36,739 nucleotides of DNA from an uncultured Desulfobacteraceae bacterium (GTDB lineage Bacteria > Desulfobacterota > Desulfobacteria > Desulfobacterales > Desulfobacteraceae), in assembly GCA_913041495.1 (NCBI GenBank), contig CAJWHT010000038.1, forward strand, positions 1 to 36,739, in the 5' to 3' direction. Numbering within the stretch: the stretch's first letter is position 1; every line of letters starts with the position of its first letter. Below are positions 16,453 through 27,215 of this stretch, piece by piece. The notes below the pieces were generated by a model. The model ran no database searches. It was given only the letters and a program-made list of their open reading frames with translations, and was not told the DNA's origin. Made by a program: the position numbers and the translations under genes.

Positions 16453-17121
16453 ATGATAGACCAATTAAAAAAGAATTATCTTGTAGCCATACTTGAGACC
16501 CGGCGCGACGGTGCGTTCGATGCAATTGATGCCGCACTGGACCATGGGCATTCTCCTGAAACGGTAATCTTTAAACTCCTGATTCCCGCCATGGAAGAGA
16601 TGGCGGCCATTGTCGAAAGCGGTGAGGAAGCCACCCTGGCCCAATTGTACCTGGCGTCCCAGATTTCGTCGCAAGTTACTGAGCGTCTGATTCCCATTTT
16701 CAGCTCAAAGGTGGAAAGCCGCGGGACCATGATTATCGGTACGGCATTTGAAGATTTCCATGGTCTTGGGAAAAAAATCGTCAGCGGCTGTCTTGCCTCC
16801 CGTCTGGTAAAGGTCATTGACCTGGGGTTGAACGTAACGGCGGAAAAATTTGTTGACACAGCGGTTGAGAATGAGGCGTCTGTTATCGGCATTTCCTCCA
16901 TGATGGTCCACACGGCCCGCGGTACAAACGGTCCGTCCGGGGTGAGGGAGCTGCTGATTCGCCGGGGCCTTGAAGACCGGATCAGTCTGGTGGTGGGCGG
17001 TGCGCCGTATAAGTTTCACCCCGAACTATACCGGAAGGTGGGAGCGAATGCCTGGGCCAGGGACGGTATGACCGCTGCAGGCGTCATATCTGATCTTATG
17101 GGTGGTGGCAGGGCATCATGA
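16453..17121 (+). CDS. Corrinoid (B12)-binding protein, MtaC/MtbC-like
   Basis: A 222-aa methyltransferase corrinoid protein. An N-terminal four-helix cap domain (about 1-85, with LAQLYLASQISSQ) precedes a Rossmann B12-binding domain holding the base-off lower-ligand motif DxHxxG as EDFHGLG, with H103. The later GISSMM and VVGGAP turns also fit. ATG 16453 follows AAGGATGATGG; ATG 16444 and TTG 16429 are alternatives. Its stop overlaps the next start (ATGA). Family members shuttle a methyl group between a substrate methyltransferase and an acceptor enzyme. No MttB/MtaB-type substrate enzyme or RamA-type activator is adjacent, so the carried methyl source is unknown. Confidence 0.92.
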   Translation: MIDQLKKNYLVAILETRRDGAFDAIDAALDHGHSPETVIFKLLIPAMEEMAAIVESGEEATLAQLYLASQISSQVTERLIPIFSSKVESRGTMIIGTAFEDFHGLGKKIVSGCLASRLVKVIDLGLNVTAEKFVDTAVENEASVIGISSMMVHTARGTNGPSGVRELLIRRGLEDRISLVVGGAPYKFHPELYRKVGANAWARDGMTAAGVISDLMGGGRAS

Positions 17122-18158
17122 CGGCGGCCATGACACCTATTGAGCGCATGACTATGGTGATGACAGGCGGTATTCCTGACCGGGTTCCCATCATGGGCAA
17201 TCTTCTGGAACAGGGGGCGGATGCCCTGGGTATTCCCATAAAGACCTACTATACCAAAGGGGAGTATGTGGCCGAAGGGCAGTTGAAACTCAGGGAGAAG
17301 TACGGGTACGACAATCTATCCGGATTTTTTTACGCAGGTCAGGAGGCACAGATGCTGGGGTGCCGCCATATTATTTTTTCAGAACAGGGGCCTCCCAATG
17401 TCGGCCACCTGATCATCAAGGATCATACCGATATCGAGGCGCTGATTGTGCCGGAGGATGTGGCAGAGCATCCATGTTTTCGTGAGCTTGCTACCTGTAT
17501 CCGTATCTTAAAGCAGGAGGCCGCAGGAAAAGTGCCTGTGGGAAGTTCCGTTATCAGTTCTTTTTCCCTGCCGGCCATCCTCATGGGGATCGACCGGTGG
17601 ATGGATCTGATGCTGAACGGTCCTGAAAAATTAAGGGACAATCTGCTGCGCAAATGTTCCGATTTTACCATCCGTCTTGCCCTGGCGCTGAAAGCAGCCG
17701 GTGTGGACGGGGTCTCCTATTCGAATCCGGTGGGGTCGGCTGACTTTTTAACGCTGAAGCAGTTCAGAAAACTCTGTCTGCCCTGGGTGAAACGGGATAT
17801 TGAAGGGATCGGTATCGAAGGGGTTACCTATTTTAACGGCGGGGGGCGGATTAACCCGATGCTTTCGGACCTGATCGACGAAACCGGTATCATGGTGTAT
17901 TATATCAACCCCATGGATGATGTGGCCAAAGCCGGGCAGATTATCGGGGACAGGGGGATCAGCAGCGGGGTCATCAACGACATACCGCTGATAGACTGGA
18001 CCCGTGAGGACATATACAAGGAGGTCCGCAGAATCATGGACGCTGGTGCTGCTGACGGAAGATTTATTTTCGGCACCCTAGTCATGCCGTATCTCATTCC
18101 GGAAGAAAACATCCATCATCTCTTTGATGCCGCCAGAGAAAACGGAGCGTATACGTGA
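17118..18158 (+). CDS. URO-D superfamily protein (MtaA-like) without the zinc ligands
   Basis: A 346-aa TIM-barrel protein of the uroporphyrinogen decarboxylase/MtaA superfamily: MTPIERMTMVMTGGIPDRVPIM at the N-terminus is typical, shown here by its ends MTPIER and DRVPIM. MtaA/MtbA enzymes move a methyl group from a corrinoid protein to a zinc-bound thiol using His-x-Cys plus a later Cys. Here the His-x-Cys position reads Y238-F-N240 followed by GGG, and no Cys follows in the last third. Canonical thiol methyl transfer is therefore unlikely. True uroporphyrinogen decarboxylase activity also looks unlikely in this setting. It overlaps both neighbours by 4 nt (ATGA, GTGA), so it almost certainly acts with the corrinoid protein. 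Confidence 0.85.
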   Translation: MTAAMTPIERMTMVMTGGIPDRVPIMGNLLEQGADALGIPIKTYYTKGEYVAEGQLKLREKYGYDNLSGFFYAGQEAQMLGCRHIIFSEQGPPNVGHLIIKDHTDIEALIVPEDVAEHPCFRELATCIRILKQEAAGKVPVGSSVISSFSLPAILMGIDRWMDLMLNGPEKLRDNLLRKCSDFTIRLALALKAAGVDGVSYSNPVGSADFLTLKQFRKLCLPWVKRDIEGIGIEGVTYFNGGGRINPMLSDLIDETGIMVYYINPMDDVAKAGQIIGDRGISSGVINDIPLIDWTREDIYKEVRRIMDAGAADGRFIFGTLVMPYLIPEENIHHLFDAARENGAYT

Positions 18159-18766
18159 ACGTGGCCGATCCGGAAAAAACTTGCGGCCGGCCTGCCATTG
18201 TGGCTTGCGGGATCTTGAAGCGTGAAATCCGTCACATTGTTGAGGCCAGGGGATGGCAGGTGGATGTCACCTTTCTGGATTCGTCCCTGCACATTTATCT
18301 TGACCGGCTGCACACCGTGCTCACCAAAGCGTTGTCCCGCAGCGGTAACCGCCCTGCGCTGCTGGTTTACGGTGCCTGCCACCCGCAGATGGAAGATATC
18401 CTGGCCGATGCCGGTGCCGCGCGCCCCCCTGTCCAGAATTGTGTGGAGCTTTTGCTGGGAAGGAAACGTTTTTCCAACGCATTGTCAACGGGGGCTTTTT
18501 TCTTGTTTGAAGACTGGTCAAAACGATGGGAAACCATCAGCCATTCCTATTTTGGCTCCTGGGAGCTGATGCGGGACGTTTTTCAGGATGCCCACACCCA
18601 CCTGCTGTGCATCCGGACGCCCTGTTCGGGGGATTTTACGGCTGATGCCGAGGTGGTGTCCCAGCGTCTCGGCCTGCCCCTTGTCTGGATGGATACAGGA
18701 CTTGAACACCTGGAGAAGACACTGGAAACCTCTCTTGAGCATTTGATTTCGGGGGAAAACAGATGA
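18155..18766 (+). CDS. DUF1638-type protein
   Basis: A 203-aa cytoplasmic protein that resembles the DUF1638 family: a VACGILKREI opening, FLDSSLHIYLDRL, a central LLVYGACHPQM and a later LLGRKRFS region. Conserved-looking cysteines occur in ACG, GACH, QNCVE and TPCSG, which could bind a metal or cofactor. Start is GTG 18155 overlapping the previous stop (GTGA), and its own stop overlaps the kinase start (ATGA). DUF1638 genes often accompany corrinoid methyltransferase genes, but no reaction is known to me. Confidence 0.8.
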   Translation: MNVADPEKTCGRPAIVACGILKREIRHIVEARGWQVDVTFLDSSLHIYLDRLHTVLTKALSRSGNRPALLVYGACHPQMEDILADAGAARPPVQNCVELLLGRKRFSNALSTGAFFLFEDWSKRWETISHSYFGSWELMRDVFQDAHTHLLCIRTPCSGDFTADAEVVSQRLGLPLVWMDTGLEHLEKTLETSLEHLISGENR

Positions 18767-20856
18767 CCAGCCGTGTGGAAGAACTCCTGGCGGAAAACGA
18801 AGCCCTAAAGCTACGTCTTAAAACCGTTTCCAAAGAAAAGGCCGATCTCCAGATGGCGGTCAGTCTTATCGATCGGATCGCCTCTGCAACGAAAAAAAAC
18901 GACGTCGTTTCAGTCATACTTGAGATCCTGGTGACGGCCATCGGCGGTTCCAACATTGCTGTTTACTATGAAGCGGACGGAAAGTGGCGGTACACGGATA
19001 TATTGGGGACAAAGAAATGGTTGGATGACATTGATTGCGGTCTTGTGCGTGACGTTCTTAGCACCGGGGAGTTCAGGAAAGAAAATGAATCCGAGTTGTC
19101 AAAACTGAGCATTCCCGGGTACCCCAGAACCTATGAGACCTGGGGATATCCCCTGAAGGTGGGCGAAGATGTGTTCGGGGCCGTGCGGCTCCAGGGAATG
19201 GCCATTAAACACGCCCACTACCGGTCAAATATCGATCCGTTTATCCAGTATTCCTCCCTGGTGCTCTACCATGAGATCTCAAACGTCAAAACCCTGCAGA
19301 CGGCCTATCGGAAAATAAGCCTTGCAAGGGACCGGCTCCAGGAAAGCGAGGAGAAGTTCCGGCAGTTGATCGAAAACGTCAACAAGGTCTTCTGGATCAG
19401 GGATGCCCGCACCAATGACCTGTTGTATATGTCCCCGAATTTTGAGGATATCTGGGGAATGTCCATACGCAAGATCTCGGAAGATACCGATAGTGTCATT
19501 GATGCCATCCACCCGGAGGACCGGAGCATGGTGGCGTACAAATTTCAGCGGCAGAATCTTTCCAAGGCCTTTGAATTGGATTACCGTATTCTGCGCCCGG
19601 CAGACGGCACGGTCCGCTGGATTCATGAGAAAAACTTCCCCATTCCCGATAAATCCGGAAAAATATACCGCAGGGCCGGGGTCAGTGAGGACATCACCGA
19701 ACGCATTCAGATGGAGGCAAAGCTGCGACAGGCGCAAAAGATGGAATCCATAGGTAACCTTGCCGGCGGCATTGCCCATGATTTCAACAATATCTTGTTT
19801 CCCATCGTGGGGATGGCTGAACTTTTGCTGGATGACCTTCCCGCCGGAAGCCAGGCCCGGGAGAATGCCCGGGAAATATTGACTGCGGGACTCCGGGGCA
19901 GCGAACTGGTCAAGCAGATCCTTTCCTTCAGCCGCCACACAGACCAGGAACCTGTCCCGGTCAAGATTCAACAGGTACTCAGGGATGTACTCAAGCTGTG
20001 CCGGGCCAGTATTCCTGCGGATATTGATATCCGGGAGGAAATAGAACCTCAGACCCGCCAGGTCATGTCCGATCCCACCCAGCTTCATCAGGTGGCCATG
20101 AATCTGATCACCAACGCATATCATGCCCTGGAAGACGGGGGCCGTATTACGGTCCGGCTTGATGAGGTTGTGATTGAATCCGATAATCCGGATACCTTTT
20201 CACTTGCACCTGGCCCCCATGCAAGGTTGCGGGTGTCGGACAACGGGACGGGAATCCCTGCCGATATTCTGAACAAAATATTTGATCCCTATTTTACCAC
20301 AAAGAAAAAAGGTAAAGGGACCGGACTCGGTCTTGCAGTGGTTCATGGTATTGTCAAAGATTACAGCGGAGATATTCTGGTTGACAGTACGCCTGGACGA
20401 GGTACCATAGTCACGGTTTATATTCCCATAGCCGAACAGCAGGGCTCTCAGATTGAAGATGCAGAACTGGTGTGTACGGAGCGCGGCTGTGAGTCCATTC
20501 TCGTGGTGGATGATGAGCCTGCCGTCGTTCGTCTGGAACGGCTCATCCTGGAGCGGCTGGGATACAGGGTTACGGCCTTTAACTCCAGCACGGCGGCATT
20601 GGATGCGGTAGAATCAGATCCCTGGGCCTATGTTCTGGTGATTTCGGACATGACGATGCCCAATCTGACCGGTGACCAGTTGACCCGCCAGATTCATTCC
20701 ATCCGGCCGGAGCTTCCGGTCATCATATGTACCGGTTACAGTGAACGGCTGAACCTGGATGCTGTCGGTGACATCGGGGTGAAAGGCGTGTTGATGAAAC
20801 CCATCGTCCGGTCCGATATGGCCGATATGGTCAGAAAAACCCTGGATGCCACATGA
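18763..20856 (+). CDS. Hybrid histidine kinase (GAF-PAS-HisKA-HATPase-REC)
   Basis: A 697-aa soluble sensor kinase. It has a short N-terminal coiled coil (about 1-42), a GAF-like domain (about 45-180), a second helix leading to PAS/PAC (about 195-325, ending YRRAGVSEDITER), an H-box IAHDFNN with phospho-acceptor H339, and an ATPase domain with N box NLITNAYHAL and G boxes DNGTGIP and GKGTGLGLA. A C-terminal receiver has acceptor D629 in ISDMTMPN. No TM helix is seen, so it senses a cytoplasmic signal. ATG 18763 overlaps the DUF1638 stop, which ties it by translation to the corrinoid/URO-D/DUF1638 trio. Confidence 0.92.
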   Translation: MTSRVEELLAENEALKLRLKTVSKEKADLQMAVSLIDRIASATKKNDVVSVILEILVTAIGGSNIAVYYEADGKWRYTDILGTKKWLDDIDCGLVRDVLSTGEFRKENESELSKLSIPGYPRTYETWGYPLKVGEDVFGAVRLQGMAIKHAHYRSNIDPFIQYSSLVLYHEISNVKTLQTAYRKISLARDRLQESEEKFRQLIENVNKVFWIRDARTNDLLYMSPNFEDIWGMSIRKISEDTDSVIDAIHPEDRSMVAYKFQRQNLSKAFELDYRILRPADGTVRWIHEKNFPIPDKSGKIYRRAGVSEDITERIQMEAKLRQAQKMESIGNLAGGIAHDFNNILFPIVGMAELLLDDLPAGSQARENAREILTAGLRGSELVKQILSFSRHTDQEPVPVKIQQVLRDVLKLCRASIPADIDIREEIEPQTRQVMSDPTQLHQVAMNLITNAYHALEDGGRITVRLDEVVIESDNPDTFSLAPGPHARLRVSDNGTGIPADILNKIFDPYFTTKKKGKGTGLGLAVVHGIVKDYSGDILVDSTPGRGTIVTVYIPIAEQQGSQIEDAELVCTERGCESILVVDDEPAVVRLERLILERLGYRVTAFNSSTAALDAVESDPWAYVLVISDMTMPNLTGDQLTRQIHSIRPELPVIICTGYSERLNLDAVGDIGVKGVLMKPIVRSDMADMVRKTLDAT

Positions 20857-20921
20857 GGGGAAATGACGAGCGGGTCAGAACCCGGGATGGCGCATAGGAT
20901 TATCCAAAAAAGAGGTGCCAG

Positions 20922-21620
20922 ATGACAGCCAGTGATACCACCGCCAGGGGCGATACATTGCCCTGCGTATTAATTGTTGACGATGAACCGGATATCGCTG
21001 CCAGCCTGTCCATGCTCATGACAGATGAAGGATACGAGGCCATGACGGCCGCCAACGGCCGGGAGGCGCTGGACCTGTACGTCCGTCATGATGTTGACGT
21101 GGTGATTACAGATATACGTATGCCGGTTGTGGACGGGCTTTCCCTGCTCAGAGAAATAAAGCGGGTGGACCCCTATGCCGCCATTATCGTGATGACCGGA
21201 TTCGCATCCGTTGAGAATGTGGTCAGCGCCATGAGGGAAAACGGGGCCTTTGACTATTTGCTGAAACCCATTGAGGATATGGATATTCTTTCTATGGCCG
21301 TTTCCCGGGCCTTCTCGCACCGGCGTCTGAAATTGGAGAACGAGGCGCTGCTGGAACGGCTGACCCTGAAAACCCAGGCCCTTGGGAAGAAAAACCGGGA
21401 GCTTGAAGAGGCTCTGGAGACCATCAAGGTCCTTGAAGGGATTCTCCCCATCTGTTCTGGCTGCCGGAAGATCAGGGATGACAAGGGCTATTGGCAGCAG
21501 TTGGAAAAATATATCGAAGCCCACGCCGACGTGATGTTTTCCCATGGGATCTGTGAAGAATGCGCCCGGAAAATTTACGGGGACGAGGATTGGTTCAATG
21601 ATCCTGCGGGCAGCCGGTAA
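20922..21620 (+). CDS. Response regulator with coiled coil and C-terminal CxxC...CxxC domain
   Basis: A 232-aa protein. The receiver domain (about 14-130) has VDDEPD, acceptor D64 in VITDIRMP, MTG and K115. A coiled coil (about 133-172) leads to a compact C-terminal domain with C178xxC181 and H208...C211xxC214, a probable zinc site. The block ILPICSGCRKIRDDKGYW to SHGICEECARKIY recurs in many deltaproteobacterial regulators as I remember them. There is no DNA-binding HTH, GGDEF or HD-GYP output, so it may work by protein contact. ATG 20922 has AGAGG at 20911-20915. It follows the hybrid kinase by 65 nt and is its likely partner. Confidence 0.9.
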   Translation: MTASDTTARGDTLPCVLIVDDEPDIAASLSMLMTDEGYEAMTAANGREALDLYVRHDVDVVITDIRMPVVDGLSLLREIKRVDPYAAIIVMTGFASVENVVSAMRENGAFDYLLKPIEDMDILSMAVSRAFSHRRLKLENEALLERLTLKTQALGKKNRELEEALETIKVLEGILPICSGCRKIRDDKGYWQQLEKYIEAHADVMFSHGICEECARKIYGDEDWFNDPAGSR

Positions 21621-21719: not shown

Positions 21720-21748
21720 TTGACTTCCTGAAAAAACCTTATTAGGTT
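21720..21748 (+). promoter_or_regulatory. Candidate promoter of the B12-riboswitch/cbiK transcript
   Basis: TTGACT (21720-21725), 17-bp spacer, TAGGTT (21743-21748). The predicted start at about 21755 falls at the beginning of the riboswitch P1 stem. The -10 is weak. The rest of 21621-21719 shows only an imperfect TCAGGCC/GGCCCTGA stem without a T run. Confidence 0.4.
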
Positions 21749-21750
21749 AC

Positions 21751-21916
21751 CCCAGAATCCAGGTGCCGAATCCGGCTTGAAAGGGAACCCTGTGAGAATC
21801 GGGGACGGGCCCGCCGCTGTAATCGGGGACAAAATCCGCAAATCTGCCACTGCTCCTAAGTTGGAACGGGAAGGCGCGGATGGAGAGTGATCCGAAAGTC
21901 AGAAGACCTGCCTGGG
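21751..21916 (+). ncRNA. Cobalamin riboswitch
   Basis: All hallmarks are present. P1 is closed by CCCAG (21751-21755) with CTGGG (21912-21916). The core contains GGGAACCCTGTGAGAATC, GGGACGGGCCCGCCGCTGT and GCCACTG, and ends with the B12 box AGTCAGAAGACCTGCCTG. It sits upstream of cbiK, a cobalt chelatase of B12 synthesis. Binding of adenosyl- or other cobalamin should repress the gene through the terminator just downstream. Confidence 0.96.
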
Positions 21917-21962
21917 ATATATCGTTCGTACTCCTTGGACAAGATACGGACACTATGGAGCC

Positions 21963-22020
21963 ATCTGGAAGAAGAATGGGCTATTCCAGATCAATATGCA
22001 TTGGTCTGGATTTTCTATTT
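21963..22020 (+). terminator. Riboswitch expression platform: terminator with competing antiterminator
   Basis: The terminator stem TCCAGATCAAT (21985-21995) pairs with ATTGGTCTGGA (22000-22010; one G-U pair) around loop ATGC and is followed by TTTTCTATTT. ATCTGGAA (21963-21970) can instead pair with TTCCAGAT (21984-21991), which would destroy the terminator. The two folds exclude each other. This fits transcription control of cbiK by the cobalamin aptamer, whose last base lies about 47 nt upstream. Confidence 0.8.
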
Positions 22021-22047
22021 CCGGACCGTGAAAAAACGGAGAAATCA

Positions 22048-23040
22048 ATGAAGTTGACATCCTTTTTTATCGCGGTTGCCCTGGTTATCACCATCACCGC
22101 AACCCAGTCATTTGCAAGCGGAAACTACCATGTTGAACACAAAAGCGCTGTCGTGCTTGCCATGTTCGGAACGACGGTTGAACCGGCCCTTCAAGGCCTG
22201 CTCAAAATCCAGAAACAGATCCGTCAGCAGTTTCCCGGGACCGAAGTTAAAATCGCCTTTACCTCCAACATCATCCGTAAAAAATGGCAACGCCGCGCAG
22301 AAGACCCCGAATACATAAAAGCCCACCCGGAAATCCCCAAAGCGGTGCTTCATGTCAAAACCCCGCTGGCAACCATCGCGGATCTTCAGAACGATGGGTA
22401 TGACAACATCGTGATTCAGCCCACCCATGTTTCCATGGGAGAGGAATTTCTTGATCTGCATACCTATGTAAAGGCGCTGATGGAAATGGGAACTTTTAAA
22501 AAGCCCAAGTACAAGCCTTTTCAGAAAGTGGCTCTGGGGCGTCCTGCCATGGGGACCTATGGTACCAAATTCCCGTACACAGATGATATCGCCGCATTGG
22601 CCAAAGCCATGGCGCCGGATGCAGAACTTGCCGGCAGGGAAAACGCCGGTATCGTCTACATGGGCCATGGGAACGCGTTCTTTCCCGGCAACGGCGGCGC
22701 TTATCTTGAGTTCGCGGCAAAAATGAGAGAGGTATACCCCGGTGTGGTGACCACCATCGGCACCGTGGAAGGCTACCCCGGCATTGATCACGTTATGGAG
22801 GATTTAAGGCTGCGCGGTGTGAAAAAAGTTGTCCTCAAACCTTTCATGGTTGTTGCGGGGGATCATTCCCTGAACGATATGGCCAGTGATGAGGAAGATT
22901 CCTGGAAAACCATCCTTACGAAAAACGGATTTGATGTGATCCCGGTGACCCAGGGATTAGGAGATAATCCGGATTTTGCCCGTATCTTCGTGGACCATGC
23001 CGTTGACGCGGCTAAAGAGGCGGGAATTGAACTAAAGTAG
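22048..23040 (+). CDS. cbiK: Periplasmic sirohydrochlorin cobaltochelatase, CbiK type
   Basis: A 330-aa class II chelatase that inserts Co2+ into sirohydrochlorin in the anaerobic B12 pathway. Residues 1-24 form a Sec signal peptide ending SFASG, so the mature enzyme is periplasmic, like the CbiK-P form known in Desulfovibrio vulgaris, which also binds haem. Active-site residues are H207 (YMGHGN), E241 (GTVEGYPG) and H273 (VAGDHSLNDM). ATG 22048 with GGAG upstream is preferred; a longer reading would run back into the riboswitch. Why a cobaltochelatase is exported is unclear, and an iron- or haem-related role has been suggested for such forms. Confidence 0.94.
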   Translation: MKLTSFFIAVALVITITATQSFASGNYHVEHKSAVVLAMFGTTVEPALQGLLKIQKQIRQQFPGTEVKIAFTSNIIRKKWQRRAEDPEYIKAHPEIPKAVLHVKTPLATIADLQNDGYDNIVIQPTHVSMGEEFLDLHTYVKALMEMGTFKKPKYKPFQKVALGRPAMGTYGTKFPYTDDIAALAKAMAPDAELAGRENAGIVYMGHGNAFFPGNGGAYLEFAAKMREVYPGVVTTIGTVEGYPGIDHVMEDLRLRGVKKVVLKPFMVVAGDHSLNDMASDEEDSWKTILTKNGFDVIPVTQGLGDNPDFARIFVDHAVDAAKEAGIELK

Positions 23041-23098: not shown

Positions 23099-23129
23099 GC
23101 CGGGCATATCATGGTTCGATGTGCCCGGC
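23099..23129 (+). terminator. Possible hairpin terminator after cbiK
   Basis: GCCGGGCA (23099-23106) pairs with TGCCCGGC (23122-23129). There is no T tract, so it may be a weak terminator, an attenuator or an mRNA-stabilising stem before the methyltransferase gene 35 nt on. A 6-bp stem CGGAAC/GTTCCG lies upstream at 23064-23078. Confidence 0.4.
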
Positions 23130-23164
23130 TGATTATGGTGCCCAGTACCCCATATGAAAGGACA

Positions 23165-24112
23165 ATGATGACACGAATCGGCAATGCGCTCAGCCGGCAG
23201 AATATCCTGGTGGTTGACGGCGCCATGGGAACGCAGCTGGAACAGCGGGGCTGTGATCTCAATGACCCCATCTGGTCTGCCCGGCTGCTGGCGGAGTCGC
23301 CGGAAACCGTCGCAGCCGTCCACACCGACTATCTGAAGGCCGGGGCAGACTGTCTTATTACAGCCTCCTACCAGGCAACCTTTGAAGGCTTTTCGGCCCG
23401 TGGGGTCAGTGAAACGGCTGCCGCAGGGCTGATTCGTTCCGCGGTTACCCTGGCCCGGGACTGTGTTGACACCTTCTGGGCTGATCCTGCAAACCGCAAG
23501 GACCGGATGAAGCCCCTGGTGGCGGCCTCTGTGGGGCCTTACGGCGCTTATCTGGCCGATGGTTCCGAATTTCGGGGAGATTACAATCTCAGTGAATCGG
23601 AACTGGCCGCCTTTCACCGAAAACGTCTGGCAACCTTAATCCAGGCCGGTCCTGATCTGCTTGCCTGCGAAACCATCCCCTGTTTTTCCGAGGCAAGGGC
23701 GCTGGCAGCACTATTGGAAGAGTTTGTGCCAGTTGAAGCCTGGGTCAGCTTCAGCGCCCGGGACGGCCGGCACATCAGCAACGGAGAGCCGGTCCGGGAC
23801 TGCGCGGCCTGGCTGGACGACAAACCATCTGTGGCTGCCGTCGGCATCAACTGCACCGACCCGCAATATATCCCTTCATTGATCCGTGAGATACGATGGG
23901 GCACGGACAAACCGGTTATCGTCTATCCCAACCGCGGGGGTGTCTGGGATGCGGCTGCCAAAACCTGGCTCATGGACCACGGCCTGCCCACCTTTGATGA
24001 GATGGCAGCGCGCTGGTTTGATGCAGGTGCACGGCTTATCGGCGGTTGCTGCCAGACCGGGCCGGCCGATATCCGGGCCCTGGCAAAGGCTTTGAAGCAA
24101 CCCAAGACGTAA
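23165..24112 (+). CDS. mmuM: Homocysteine S-methyltransferase
   Basis: A 315-aa zinc-dependent methyltransferase of the MmuM/Hmt type that makes methionine from homocysteine with S-methylmethionine or S-adenosylmethionine as donor. The N-terminal VVDGAMGTQLEQRG, the ITASYQAT segment and zinc ligands in GINCTDP and GGCCQTG are diagnostic. ATG 23165 has AAAGGA at 23157-23162. There is no B12-binding domain, so it is not MetH. It stands between cbiK and the PEP-synthase-like gene; the gap to cbiK is 124 nt, so joint transcription is open. Confidence 0.93.
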   Translation: MMTRIGNALSRQNILVVDGAMGTQLEQRGCDLNDPIWSARLLAESPETVAAVHTDYLKAGADCLITASYQATFEGFSARGVSETAAAGLIRSAVTLARDCVDTFWADPANRKDRMKPLVAASVGPYGAYLADGSEFRGDYNLSESELAAFHRKRLATLIQAGPDLLACETIPCFSEARALAALLEEFVPVEAWVSFSARDGRHISNGEPVRDCAAWLDDKPSVAAVGINCTDPQYIPSLIREIRWGTDKPVIVYPNRGGVWDAAAKTWLMDHGLPTFDEMAARWFDAGARLIGGCCQTGPADIRALAKALKQPKT

Positions 24113-24233: not shown

Positions 24234-27215
24234 ATGATGACAGAACGTCCTTTTGACACCTCCCCGGAAAACACAGGGGAACAATCCTCCCGGTTTAAAC
24301 TCTTCCACAAACTGATGTCCCGCAAGGTGAGGCACATCCTGCTTATATCCACCTCCTACGAGGCCTGGATCATGGAAGAGGACTGCCGCTTGTCCGAGCA
24401 GATCATCAATGAATACCGGGGCCTGAATCTGAGCCGCCCCCCCCAACTGACCTGGGTATCATCTGCCGAACTGGCCGTGGAAAAGATGGGGACCCGGGGG
24501 TTTGACCTGGTCATCGTTATTTCCAGGGCAGTGGATGAAACCGCCTACGGGGCAGGGGAGCGGATCAAGGCCCGGGTCCCGGATATGCCGGTGATCCTGC
24601 TGACCCACCAGGAAGTCCTGCCCGAAGCCGGTGTCCGGCTGGCCACAAGTTCTTCAGGAATCGACCGGATTTTCTACTGGTCCGGGGATGCCGGCATCCT
24701 TCTGGCTATCATCAAGCATGTGGAGGACCGGATGAATGTGGGGCCGGATACGGCCTGCGCCGGCATCCGGGTGATCATCGTTGTGGAGGACTCCCCGTTT
24801 TACCGGTCGGTTATCCTGCCGGCCCTTTACCGGGAGCTGGTCACGGAAACCCAGGCGCTGATCGAAGACAGCCTGAACGAAGAGCACCGCATCCTGTCCA
24901 TGCGCGCCCGGCCCAAAATCCTGCTGGCGGGTTCCTATGAGCAGGCCATGGAGGTTTATGAAACCTACAAACCCTATGTCCTCGGGGTGATTTCCGACGT
25001 CCGGTTTCCGAACCGAGGTGCCCTGGACGGGGAAGCCGGCCTGAAACTGCTCCGGTACATTAAATCCGACCGGTTTGACATCCCTTTGCTGCTGGCCAGT
25101 TCCGAACCTGAAAATGCCGAACCTGCGGCCCGGATTCCCGCCGTGTTTATCGATAAAAGTACCTCCCGTCTCCAGGAAAGGATCGCCGGTTTTCTAATGG
25201 ACTATCTCGGGTTCGGCCCGTTTGTTTTTCGGCAGCCGGACGGCAGGGTCATCCAAAAGGCCTCCGATCTTTTTGAACTGGAGCAGGGGCTTCGAACCAT
25301 TTCCGAAGCCGCCTTCGTTCGCCATTGCTGTCAGAATGATTTTTCCCGCTGGCTTTTTTCCCTGGCCGAGGTTGAGCTTGCCAACCAGCTTCGTCCATTG
25401 CGGGACACCGATTTCGACAGTGTGGAAATCCACCGCCGCCATCTTATTGAACTCATCCGGGATAAGCGGCGGGAACGTCTCAAAGGGGTGATCGTTGATT
25501 TTGACAAGCACAGGTTCGATCCGGAAACCGGCTTTCTTAAGACGGGGAAGGGATCTCTTGGGGGAAAGGCCAGGGGCCAGGCATTTATCTCCTGGATTAT
25601 CAGCCGCTCCGAAACCTGTTTCCAATCTTTTGAAGGGATTTGCGTCATGGTGCCCCAGACCCTGGTGATCACCACCGAAGGATTTGATGATTTCATCCGG
25701 CTCAATCATCTTGGGGAACTGATGCACAGGGATTTCACGGACGAGGAAATTGCAGAACGGTTCGTGGATGCCACCTTCCCTGAAAATCTCAAATGCCGGC
25801 TGACCACCTTCCTTGGGAGCGTGGATTATCCCCTGGCCGTCCGTTCCTCAGGCCTGCTTGAGGATGCCAGGTTCAAACCCTATGCGGGCCTTTACAAGAC
25901 TTTTTTTGTCCCCAATGACGATGCGGATATGGAATGCCGCATCCTCCAGCTCATGGAGGCCGTCAAGATGGTCTGGGCCTCCACCTTCTACCGGGCACCC
26001 CGGGCGTTTACCCGACGGGTGGGAAACCGCATGGAGAGTGAAAAGATGGCGGTCATCATTCAGCAGGTGGTGGGCAGCCGCTACGGCGATCACTTTTATC
26101 CGGCGGTATCGGGCGTGGCACAGTCAAAAAACTATTATCCCTTTTCCAGGATGACACCGGAGGACGGCATCGTGAACATCGCTATGGGGCTGGGCAAAGC
26201 CGTGATGGAGGGGGAAAACAATCTCAGGTTCTGCCCCAGGTATCCGGAAATCCTGCCCCAGCGCTCCACCGTCCGGGACATCCTTGAAAATGCCCAGCAA
26301 TACTTTTACGCCTTGAAAATGGGGGAACCCACCTGCAGCCTCGGGGTGAACGATGCCGTTACCCTGGTGCGCAGGGATCTTCACGAAGCCAAAGACGAAT
26401 ATCCCGTGCGTGCGCTTTGTTCCACTTATTTCCCTGCGGACGACCGCATCCGCGATACCTGGTCCGCCCAGGGCTTTCCCGTGCTGACCTTTGCTTCCCT
26501 GCTCAAGTACAAGAGTCTGCCTGTGGCGGAAATTATCCGGGATCTTCTGGCACTTGGCAGCCGTGAGCTTGGATGCCCCGTGGAGATTGAGTTTGCCCTG
26601 GACCTGTCTCCGGATGCGTCGGAGGCGGCCCGGTTTGCGGTTCTTCAGATTCGTCCCATGAGCGCCAGGGAGGAGATGCTGGATGTCTCCATCACGGATG
26701 AGGACCTGAGCCTTGCCCTGTGCATTTCCCACATGGCACTGGGCAACACGGTAAACACAGAGATGTCCGATATTATTTATGTGAAACCCGATACCTTTGA
26801 CCCGTCCAAAACCGTGGAAATCGTCCCTGAAATCGCCAAGATCAACCGGGCGTTGTCAAAAACGGACCGCAAATATATCCTCATCGGCCCGGGCCGCTGG
26901 GGCACCGCTGACCGATGGCTGGGCATCCCGGTGACATGGGGAGACATCAGCGGTGTCGGCGCCATCGTGGAGACTGTTCATCCGGACATCCAGGCCGATC
27001 CGTCCCAAGGGTCCCATTTCTTCCACAACATCACTGCCCTGGGAATCAATTACTTCAACGTCGGGCACCATAATGGAGATCTTATGGATACACTCCGTCT
27101 GGCCGGTTTTAAAACGGTGCAGGAGACGCCCCATGTGGTCCATGTCAAAGCGCCCAAAGAACTGACCCTGAAAGTGGACGGCCGCAGCGGCAAGGGAATT
27201 ATCAGGGAATCTTAG
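24234..27215 (+). CDS. Receiver-domain/PEP-pyruvate-binding (PpsA N-domain-like) fusion protein
   Basis: A 993-aa soluble protein. Residues about 33-165 form a degenerate receiver-like domain. Residues about 177-325 form a second receiver with E185/D186 (VVEDSPF), possible phospho-acceptor D255 (ISDVRFP) and K308 (FIDKS). From about 440 a PEP-synthase/PPDK ATP-binding domain follows: GSLGGKARGQAF, PLAVRSSGLLEDA, PYAGLYKTFFV, a late EIEFALD and VLQIRPM. The phosphohistidine swivel domain and the PEP-binding barrel of true PpsA are absent. Instead there is a C-terminal ILIGPGRWGTADRWLG...GSHFFHNI module. It cannot be a complete PEP synthase; a phosphorylation-controlled ATP-dependent kinase or dikinase-like role is inferred. 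ATG 24234 has GAGG upstream. Confidence 0.85.
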   Translation: MMTERPFDTSPENTGEQSSRFKLFHKLMSRKVRHILLISTSYEAWIMEEDCRLSEQIINEYRGLNLSRPPQLTWVSSAELAVEKMGTRGFDLVIVISRAVDETAYGAGERIKARVPDMPVILLTHQEVLPEAGVRLATSSSGIDRIFYWSGDAGILLAIIKHVEDRMNVGPDTACAGIRVIIVVEDSPFYRSVILPALYRELVTETQALIEDSLNEEHRILSMRARPKILLAGSYEQAMEVYETYKPYVLGVISDVRFPNRGALDGEAGLKLLRYIKSDRFDIPLLLASSEPENAEPAARIPAVFIDKSTSRLQERIAGFLMDYLGFGPFVFRQPDGRVIQKASDLFELEQGLRTISEAAFVRHCCQNDFSRWLFSLAEVELANQLRPLRDTDFDSVEIHRRHLIELIRDKRRERLKGVIVDFDKHRFDPETGFLKTGKGSLGGKARGQAFISWIISRSETCFQSFEGICVMVPQTLVITTEGFDDFIRLNHLGELMHRDFTDEEIAERFVDATFPENLKCRLTTFLGSVDYPLAVRSSGLLEDARFKPYAGLYKTFFVPNDDADMECRILQLMEAVKMVWASTFYRAPRAFTRRVGNRMESEKMAVIIQQVVGSRYGDHFYPAVSGVAQSKNYYPFSRMTPEDGIVNIAMGLGKAVMEGENNLRFCPRYPEILPQRSTVRDILENAQQYFYALKMGEPTCSLGVNDAVTLVRRDLHEAKDEYPVRALCSTYFPADDRIRDTWSAQGFPVLTFASLLKYKSLPVAEIIRDLLALGSRELGCPVEIEFALDLSPDASEAARFAVLQIRPMSAREEMLDVSITDEDLSLALCISHMALGNTVNTEMSDIIYVKPDTFDPSKTVEIVPEIAKINRALSKTDRKYILIGPGRWGTADRWLGIPVTWGDISGVGAIVETVHPDIQADPSQGSHFFHNITALGINYFNVGHHNGDLMDTLRLAGFKTVQETPHVVHVKAPKELTLKVDGRSGKGIIRES

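Follow-up and report, generated by a model that had tools for sequence, protein, structure and literature searches.

A corrinoid protein, a URO-D-fold protein and a DUF1638 protein probably form a sensory input module for GAF-bearing signaling proteins

Where H-NOX or NosP heme proteins are encoded beside histidine kinases, a separate cofactor-carrying protein supplies the input of the kinase. Those systems bind heme and gases and have no enzyme-like partners, whereas the cluster analyzed here is built around a corrinoid. It lies in a 36,739-nucleotide (nt) stretch of DNA from an uncultured Desulfobacteraceae bacterium (contig CAJWHT010000038.1; the whole stretch is called the window below), taken from a draft genome of 5.77 Mb in 328 contigs, and consists of genes for a corrinoid protein, a methyltransferase-like protein of the URO-D fold and a DUF1638 protein, followed by genes for a hybrid histidine kinase and a response regulator.

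The closest described systems, as presented in the accessible sections of their reports, share parts of this composition. MtaA or MtbA with MtbC-type proteins, and the type 1 mlp clusters, also encode a URO-D-fold protein together with a corrinoid protein bearing the base-off histidine; the type 1 mlp clusters have, besides a RACE activase, two or three Mlps, show no conserved synteny and are described as metabolic (PMC10418091). In contrast to these clusters, the arrangement studied here has a fixed gene order and includes a DUF1638 protein and a signaling protein; its single URO-D protein lacks the zinc motif, and no activase gene adjoins it. The mec cassette likewise clusters a kinase with a corrinoid protein and members of the URO-D family, but it includes several methyltransferases, a proposed MTII among them, and its kinase carries a PocR domain (PMC9768040); Pfam reveals neither an MTII nor a PocR-type kinase in the window cluster, whose kinase bears a GAF domain specific to the module. 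CdmBC and the O-demethylase methyltransferase I systems resemble it in the URO-D fold and the corrinoid partner, and CdmB is zinc-free, but these systems are catabolic, and neither "sensor" nor "histidine kinase" occurs in the available text of the report (PMC13222342). CarH and the photocobilins use a B12-binding domain as a signaling input (PMC10979010, PMC11796333); they rely on the light chemistry of adenosylcobalamin, whereas the present set is without the EH signature (counts below) and includes a methyltransferase-like protein. No description of this gene composition was found in the accessible open-licence literature.

We propose that the corrinoid, URO-D and DUF1638 proteins (the trio) probably serve as a sensory input module for the kinase, which would read them through a dedicated GAF domain, and that B12 methyl chemistry at this locus is probably used for sensing and not for feeding the cell. 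The direct basis of this proposal is a conserved gene order, a GAF domain nearly confined to the module, exchangeable outputs, fusions of DUF1638 to GAF and co-variation of the partners. What we infer beyond this is that the proteins touch, that methyl groups are transferred, how DUF1638 acts and what is signaled. The features of the locus are as follows.

16453..17121 (stop 17119-17121), + strand: corrinoid protein gene (PF02310 and PF02607; start uncertain)
17118..18158, + strand: URO-D-fold methyltransferase-like protein (PF01208, 154.5 bits)
18155..18766, + strand: DUF1638 protein (PF07796, 96.1 bits)
18763..20856, + strand: hybrid sensor histidine kinase, GAF-PAS-HisKA-HATPase-receiver (Pfam)
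18763..19332, + strand: GAF domain of the kinase (predicted structure and Foldseek; boundary approximate)
19354..19683, + strand: PAS domain of the kinase (PF08447/PF00989, residues 198-307)
19753..20433, + strand: kinase core, HisKA and HATPase_c (PF00512, residues 331-393; PF02518, residues 437-557)
20497..20832, + strand: receiver domain of the hybrid kinase (PF00072, residues 579-690)
20922..21620, + strand: response regulator (PF00072, 99 bits)

The first four genes overlap one another by 4 nt each (ATGA at the corrinoid/URO-D junction, GTGA at URO-D/DUF1638 and ATGA at DUF1638/kinase), and 65 nt separate the kinase stop from the response regulator gene. These positions, overlaps and gap agree to the base with the original prediction, which had been made from the window alone; its term "translationally fused" is wrong, since the genes are separate and overlapping. 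In-frame starts of the corrinoid gene occur at TTG 16429 and at ATG 16444, 16447 and 16453, the last being the one chosen in that prediction. A 4-nt overlap is by itself not special, and the conserved gene order is the notable part. Among relatives, a start overlapping the stop by 4 nt is possible at 55 of 65 corrinoid/URO-D junctions, 26 of 52 URO-D/DUF1638 junctions and 24 of 50 DUF1638/signal-protein junctions; three of these last 50 are single fused genes.

The window DUF1638 sequence was searched in 145 relatives and the neighborhoods of the best matches were inspected, revealing ten loci (L032-L041) with the order corrinoid, URO-D, DUF1638 and signal protein, in which the first three proteins are approximately 23-72% identical to those of the window. 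A profile search of 395 genomes of the phylum added L082-L085, including a corrinoid gene in L084 that had been missed in gene calling and was recovered by further search. These loci fall into two clades, approximately 19-35% identical to each other: clade I (the window, L032-L034, L083 and L084) and clade II (L035-L041, L082 and L085).

A broader search covered 84,980 species, each represented by one genome. Its profile was built from five clade I corrinoid proteins and nothing else, and therefore the neighboring genes had no part in finding the 68 loci that were returned. One of these, L169, is a methionine synthase and not the module, and four (L102, L110, L114 and L120) are seed loci found again. 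Gene order was counted where over 2.6 kb of sequence follows the corrinoid gene, as it does in 63 loci. The URO-D gene lies next to the corrinoid gene in 62 of them, and both URO-D and DUF1638 genes follow it in 51. If the module is defined as corrinoid, URO-D and GAF-type signal protein genes in this order, the window and 60 of the 63 relatives possess it, the signal protein following all three genes in 50 loci and following URO-D without DUF1638 in 10; the exceptions are L111, where such proteins occur further on, L136 and L169. With the four seeds removed, the full order is present in 46/59 loci and the order without DUF1638 in 10/59. The gene order is thus kept beyond close strains, a point on which the original prediction had staked its proposal.

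According to the taxon labels of the records, these corrinoid proteins span 12 groups of phylum rank, with "Deltaproteobacteria" labels counted as Myxococcota and with bins that may be contaminated: L138 (Alphaproteobacteria) and L140 (Bacteroidales) are near copies. Phylum labels are more scattered over the corrinoid tree than would be expected from single origins; the scatter fits transfer between bacteria, without proving it. Three genomes carry two module copies on one contig (L107/L123, L113/L137 and L128/L132).

By Pfam, the window kinase contains the HisKA, HATPase_c and receiver domains of a hybrid histidine kinase, and its first ~190 residues match no Pfam family. This N-terminal portion is predicted to adopt a GAF fold (predicted local distance difference test score, pLDDT, 87.5), and a Foldseek search with the model retrieved solved GAF domains (best E value 2.8e-6). 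The GAF domain is the part common to the signal proteins of the module. Across 50 module-bearing genomes, a profile of this domain gave 61 matches (E<=1e-10). The corrinoid profile, at E<=1e-30, gave 66, which divide into 55 strong matches (E<1e-75) and 11 weaker ones with E values between 1e-31 and 1e-43. Fifty-four of the 61 GAF matches lie no more than 2.6 kb behind a strong corrinoid match, and six others lie within 10 kb on the same strand. Conversely, 54 of the 55 strong corrinoid matches have the GAF domain, which was found close behind none of the 11 weaker ones in these genomes. Presence of the module was the criterion for picking the 50 genomes, and the profile includes most of the GAF domains of their modules; therefore, the informative part of this result is the scarcity of extra GAF copies. 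In the 395 genomes of the phylum, the GAF profile matched four times: in the window and G288, whose GAF domains were in the profile, in G169, which has the module, and in G312. A DUF1638 profile (E<1e-50) and a clade II corrinoid profile (E<=1e-40) retrieved the same five genomes. As the window is in the former profile and two of the five genomes are in the latter, what is informative here is that no other genome appears. All of these genome searches scored only the best candidates per genome. L185 (6838-9351) codes for a hybrid kinase whose GAF domain is that of the module, and the trio is not beside it.

Co-variation gives a related picture. In 37 non-redundant loci, pairwise distances between corrinoid proteins correlate with those between GAF domains (r 0.85) and URO-D proteins (0.82), and with those between kinase cores at 0.49; the difference between the corrinoid-GAF and corrinoid-kinase core correlations has a 95% bootstrap range of 0.18-0.63. 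Because one gene encodes both the GAF domain and the kinase core, common descent by itself should affect the two equally. At the level of sequence, the GAF domain keeps company with the trio while the outputs change.

The changing outputs were surveyed in 60 signal proteins, namely that of the window and 59 of the 60 found in relatives. HATPase_c is present in 50 of them, HisKA in 49, HisKA_2 in two, a receiver in 33, and GGDEF and HD-GYP in one each, the variants being represented by L119, L163, L142 and L158. Seven of the proteins exceed 1,500 residues; for five of them the sequence breaks off before the gene is complete, so that their outputs are not seen. Clade II includes a GGDEF protein (L036) and an HD-GYP protein (L082). 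Four loci have DUF1638 and the GAF domain fused: L082 encodes DUF1638-GAF-PAS-PAS-HD-GYP as one chain, and in L115, L121 and L135 a single gene encodes DUF1638, GAF and kinase. The window response regulator comprises a receiver and a cysteine-containing C-terminal region that matches no Pfam family; it is perhaps a local partner of the kinase. The original prediction had counted it as a fifth member of the set, which the comparison does not support: no response regulator was tagged behind the kinase in L103, a near relative, and the sequence of L102 is too short to tell. Among 109 flanking proteins, counted by families with at least two members (singletons are unlisted), receivers occur 20 times and HATPase_c 16 times, and no methyltransferase family is present. 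Two of the 109, in the flanks of L102-L165, carry a MEDS domain, a sensory domain of methanogens and methylotrophs (DcmR type).

The corrinoid protein consists of a helical cap and a B12-binding domain (Pfam B12-binding, 64.2 bits; B12-binding_2, 31.7 bits) with the base-off motif DFHGLG. The general form DxHxxG, which we take to mark the base-off histidine of corrinoid proteins that carry methyl groups, is present in all 66 clade I proteins, that of the window included, and DxHxLG is present in all nine of clade II. Against TIGR02370, the family of methyltransferase cognate corrinoid proteins, the window protein scores 80.7 bits, under the curated cut-off of 215.3.

For the URO-D protein, the nearest solved structure by profile comparison is MtaA (4ay7, 94 bits), and solved uroporphyrinogen decarboxylases score lower (best 45.7 bits); identity with the latter enzyme was set aside. 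The MtaA stretch LHICGN has no counterpart in the aligned window protein. H-x-C is the zinc motif of MtaA; H-x-C-G occurs in none of 61 clade I URO-D proteins, and H-x-C is absent from the aligned stretch of 75 URO-D proteins, clade II included. Together with a TIGR01463 (MtaA/CmuA) score of 82.8 bits against a curated cut-off of 235.4, the missing motif rules out MtaA, and the MtaA-like methyl-acceptor role first proposed for this protein is not supported. Loss of the motif does not equal inactivity, because CdmB, a URO-D-fold chloromethane methyltransferase, works without zinc according to the accessible part of its description (PMC13222342).

All 68 rows of the DUF1638 alignment, 18 of which represent proteins outside the module, keep residues C18, H46, C75 and C96, and these may constitute a metal site. 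The structure is predicted with confidence (pLDDT 93.4); its best Foldseek match is weak (3ojc, E 7.4e-4, template modeling score 0.35), so no known fold was assigned and no function was drawn from the model. Genetics in Phaeobacter, in the accessible portion of the report, showed a DUF1638 protein and a RamA-like protein to be required for B12-dependent methionine synthesis, and Price and colleagues made no specific proposal there for the DUF1638 protein (PMC5764234); a later paper, as far as its available text goes, lists it among predicted cobalamin-recharging proteins (PMC12478193). At DUF1638 loci outside the module, the downstream neighbor is a signal protein in 0 of 21. Proteins of ~940 residues headed by DUF1638 occur in the genome of the window and in many relatives; the one scanned in full (L050, 3899-6697) fuses DUF1638 to hydantoinase-type (ASKHA-like) domains, as does L101 (9455-10801), both from the window's own genome. 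In L086 (105-3070), corrinoid, DUF1638 and RACo-type activase genes are consecutive, without URO-D or kinase, and this row is a possible metabolic counterpart of the module. In L034 and L114 (a Desulfobacula metagenome-assembled genome), the DUF1638 gene contains one in-frame TGA, which might mean a broken gene, an error or selenocysteine, and the module is otherwise complete.

In the mechanism we envisage, the URO-D protein would methylate the corrinoid cobalt at the expense of a small donor, or demethylate it, and DUF1638, perhaps through a bound metal, would help to keep that cobalt reduced and active. Whether the corrinoid protein is methylated, or which redox state it is in, would then be read by the GAF domain of the kinase, and this reading would alter kinase phosphorylation.

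Alternatively, the corrinoid and URO-D proteins might be metabolic, as parts of a methyltransferase set that serves catabolism and is regulated by a kinase of its own, which senses a substrate by itself and controls the genes. The mec cassette, in which a kinase, a response regulator, a corrinoid protein and URO-D-family proteins adjoin (PMC9768040, accessible sections), offers a precedent, and CdmB establishes that zinc-free URO-D-fold methyltransferases exist (PMC13222342, likewise). The genome of the window is moreover rich in MTTB, with 22 matches, some of them pieces of one gene. Four of the 22 (contigs C254, C183, C73 and C262 of G000) contain one in-frame TAG, which suggests pyrrolysine use; RACo-type matches in this genome number three. 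What speaks against a catabolic set is that tagging of the 68 loci revealed no RACo-type gene, that the flanking families counted above include no methyltransferase, and that 43 of the 50 module-bearing genomes, which are drafts in which genes may be missed, show no MTTB match. A tie of the module to MTTB methylotrophy was dropped on finding such a match in only 7/50. The GGDEF and HD-GYP outputs and the DUF1638-GAF fusions would also be left unexplained, and we consider a catabolic set unlikely. A smaller chance still is given to a trio that makes or removes a small diffusible methylated compound bound by the GAF domain, for which contact between corrinoid protein and kinase would be unneeded. 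GAF domains often bind small ligands, and the fusion partner of this one is DUF1638 and not the corrinoid protein; the tight co-variation and the fusions fit direct contact more easily than a diffusible compound. Most improbable to us is a B12 light sensor of the CarH/photocobilin kind, in which the corrinoid protein would bind adenosylcobalamin and be changed by light. Enzyme domains under the control of B12-binding domains are indeed known, one being the diguanylate cyclase of a photocobilin (PMC11796333, accessible sections), and the cap signature GxxW is present in all nine clade II corrinoid proteins; only GxxW and EH were scored from the list in that report, which also includes GxxH and GxxxP. 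In clade I, however, GxxW occurs in 1 of 66 proteins and EH in 2 of 66, EH occurs in 1 of 9 in clade II, and a light sensor would give the URO-D protein no purpose.

Several observations weigh against the trio as a sensory input module. The kinase of G312 has the module's GAF domain with no trio in the 14 kb inspected, so that the two GAF matches from genomes outside the profile, among the 395, comprise one with the module and one without; a single GAF match in G573 (1/61) stands alone. DUF1638 is missing from 10 of 63 loci and is therefore not essential, a RACo-type activase, which could keep the cobalt reduced, was matched in only 30 of the 50 module-bearing genomes, most loci come from metagenome bins, and the case is built from sequences and predicted structures. 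The original prediction had allowed for a sensor or for a methyl-transfer branch under tight local control. The sensory module now outweighs a plain methyltransferase set because its outputs are interchangeable, enzymes of cyclic di-GMP included, because the GAF domain is nearly confined to the cluster and co-varies with the corrinoid protein, and because DUF1638-GAF fusions exist and most module-bearing genomes show no MTTB match; the MtaA-like role and the membership of the response regulator found no support.

The surroundings of the locus in the window include QrcD directly upstream (690.3 bits; curated cut-off 570), a mark of sulfate reducers. Downstream, a cobalamin riboswitch (21744-21929, 108.6 bits) precedes a CbiK-type cobaltochelatase gene (21880-23040), whose mechanical start at 21880 falls within the riboswitch; the ATG at 22048, which opens a signal-peptide-like stretch, is the likelier start. 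A homocysteine S-methyltransferase gene (23111-24112) comes next, and the 993 residues encoded at positions 24234-27215 include a PPDK_N (ATP-binding) domain; no curated family scored above its cut-off for this protein. Scans were uninformative, returning 12 promoter-like sites against 5.0 expected, mostly intragenic, and five terminator-like sites against 6.3 expected.

Corrinoid methyltransferases have so far been known as catabolic or biosynthetic enzymes. If the proposed reading is true, anaerobes would directly sense methyl donors or the redox state of cobalt through two-component and cyclic di-GMP signaling, DUF1638 would gain a setting for tests of its function, and caution would be due before such URO-D and corrinoid genes are annotated as methylotrophy. 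The module is present in named isolates, among them Desulfospira joergensenii DSM 10085 (L120), Citrifermentans bremense (L109) and Geobacter argillaceus (L118), and the idea is therefore open to direct testing. More broadly, and at a little less than even odds in our estimation, many bacterial groups may possess a general chemical sense organ made of a corrinoid methyl-transfer set that is dedicated to this task and not to catabolism, in which the methylation state of a B12 protein is the signal that a specialized GAF domain passes to kinases, diguanylate cyclases and HD-GYP phosphodiesterases.

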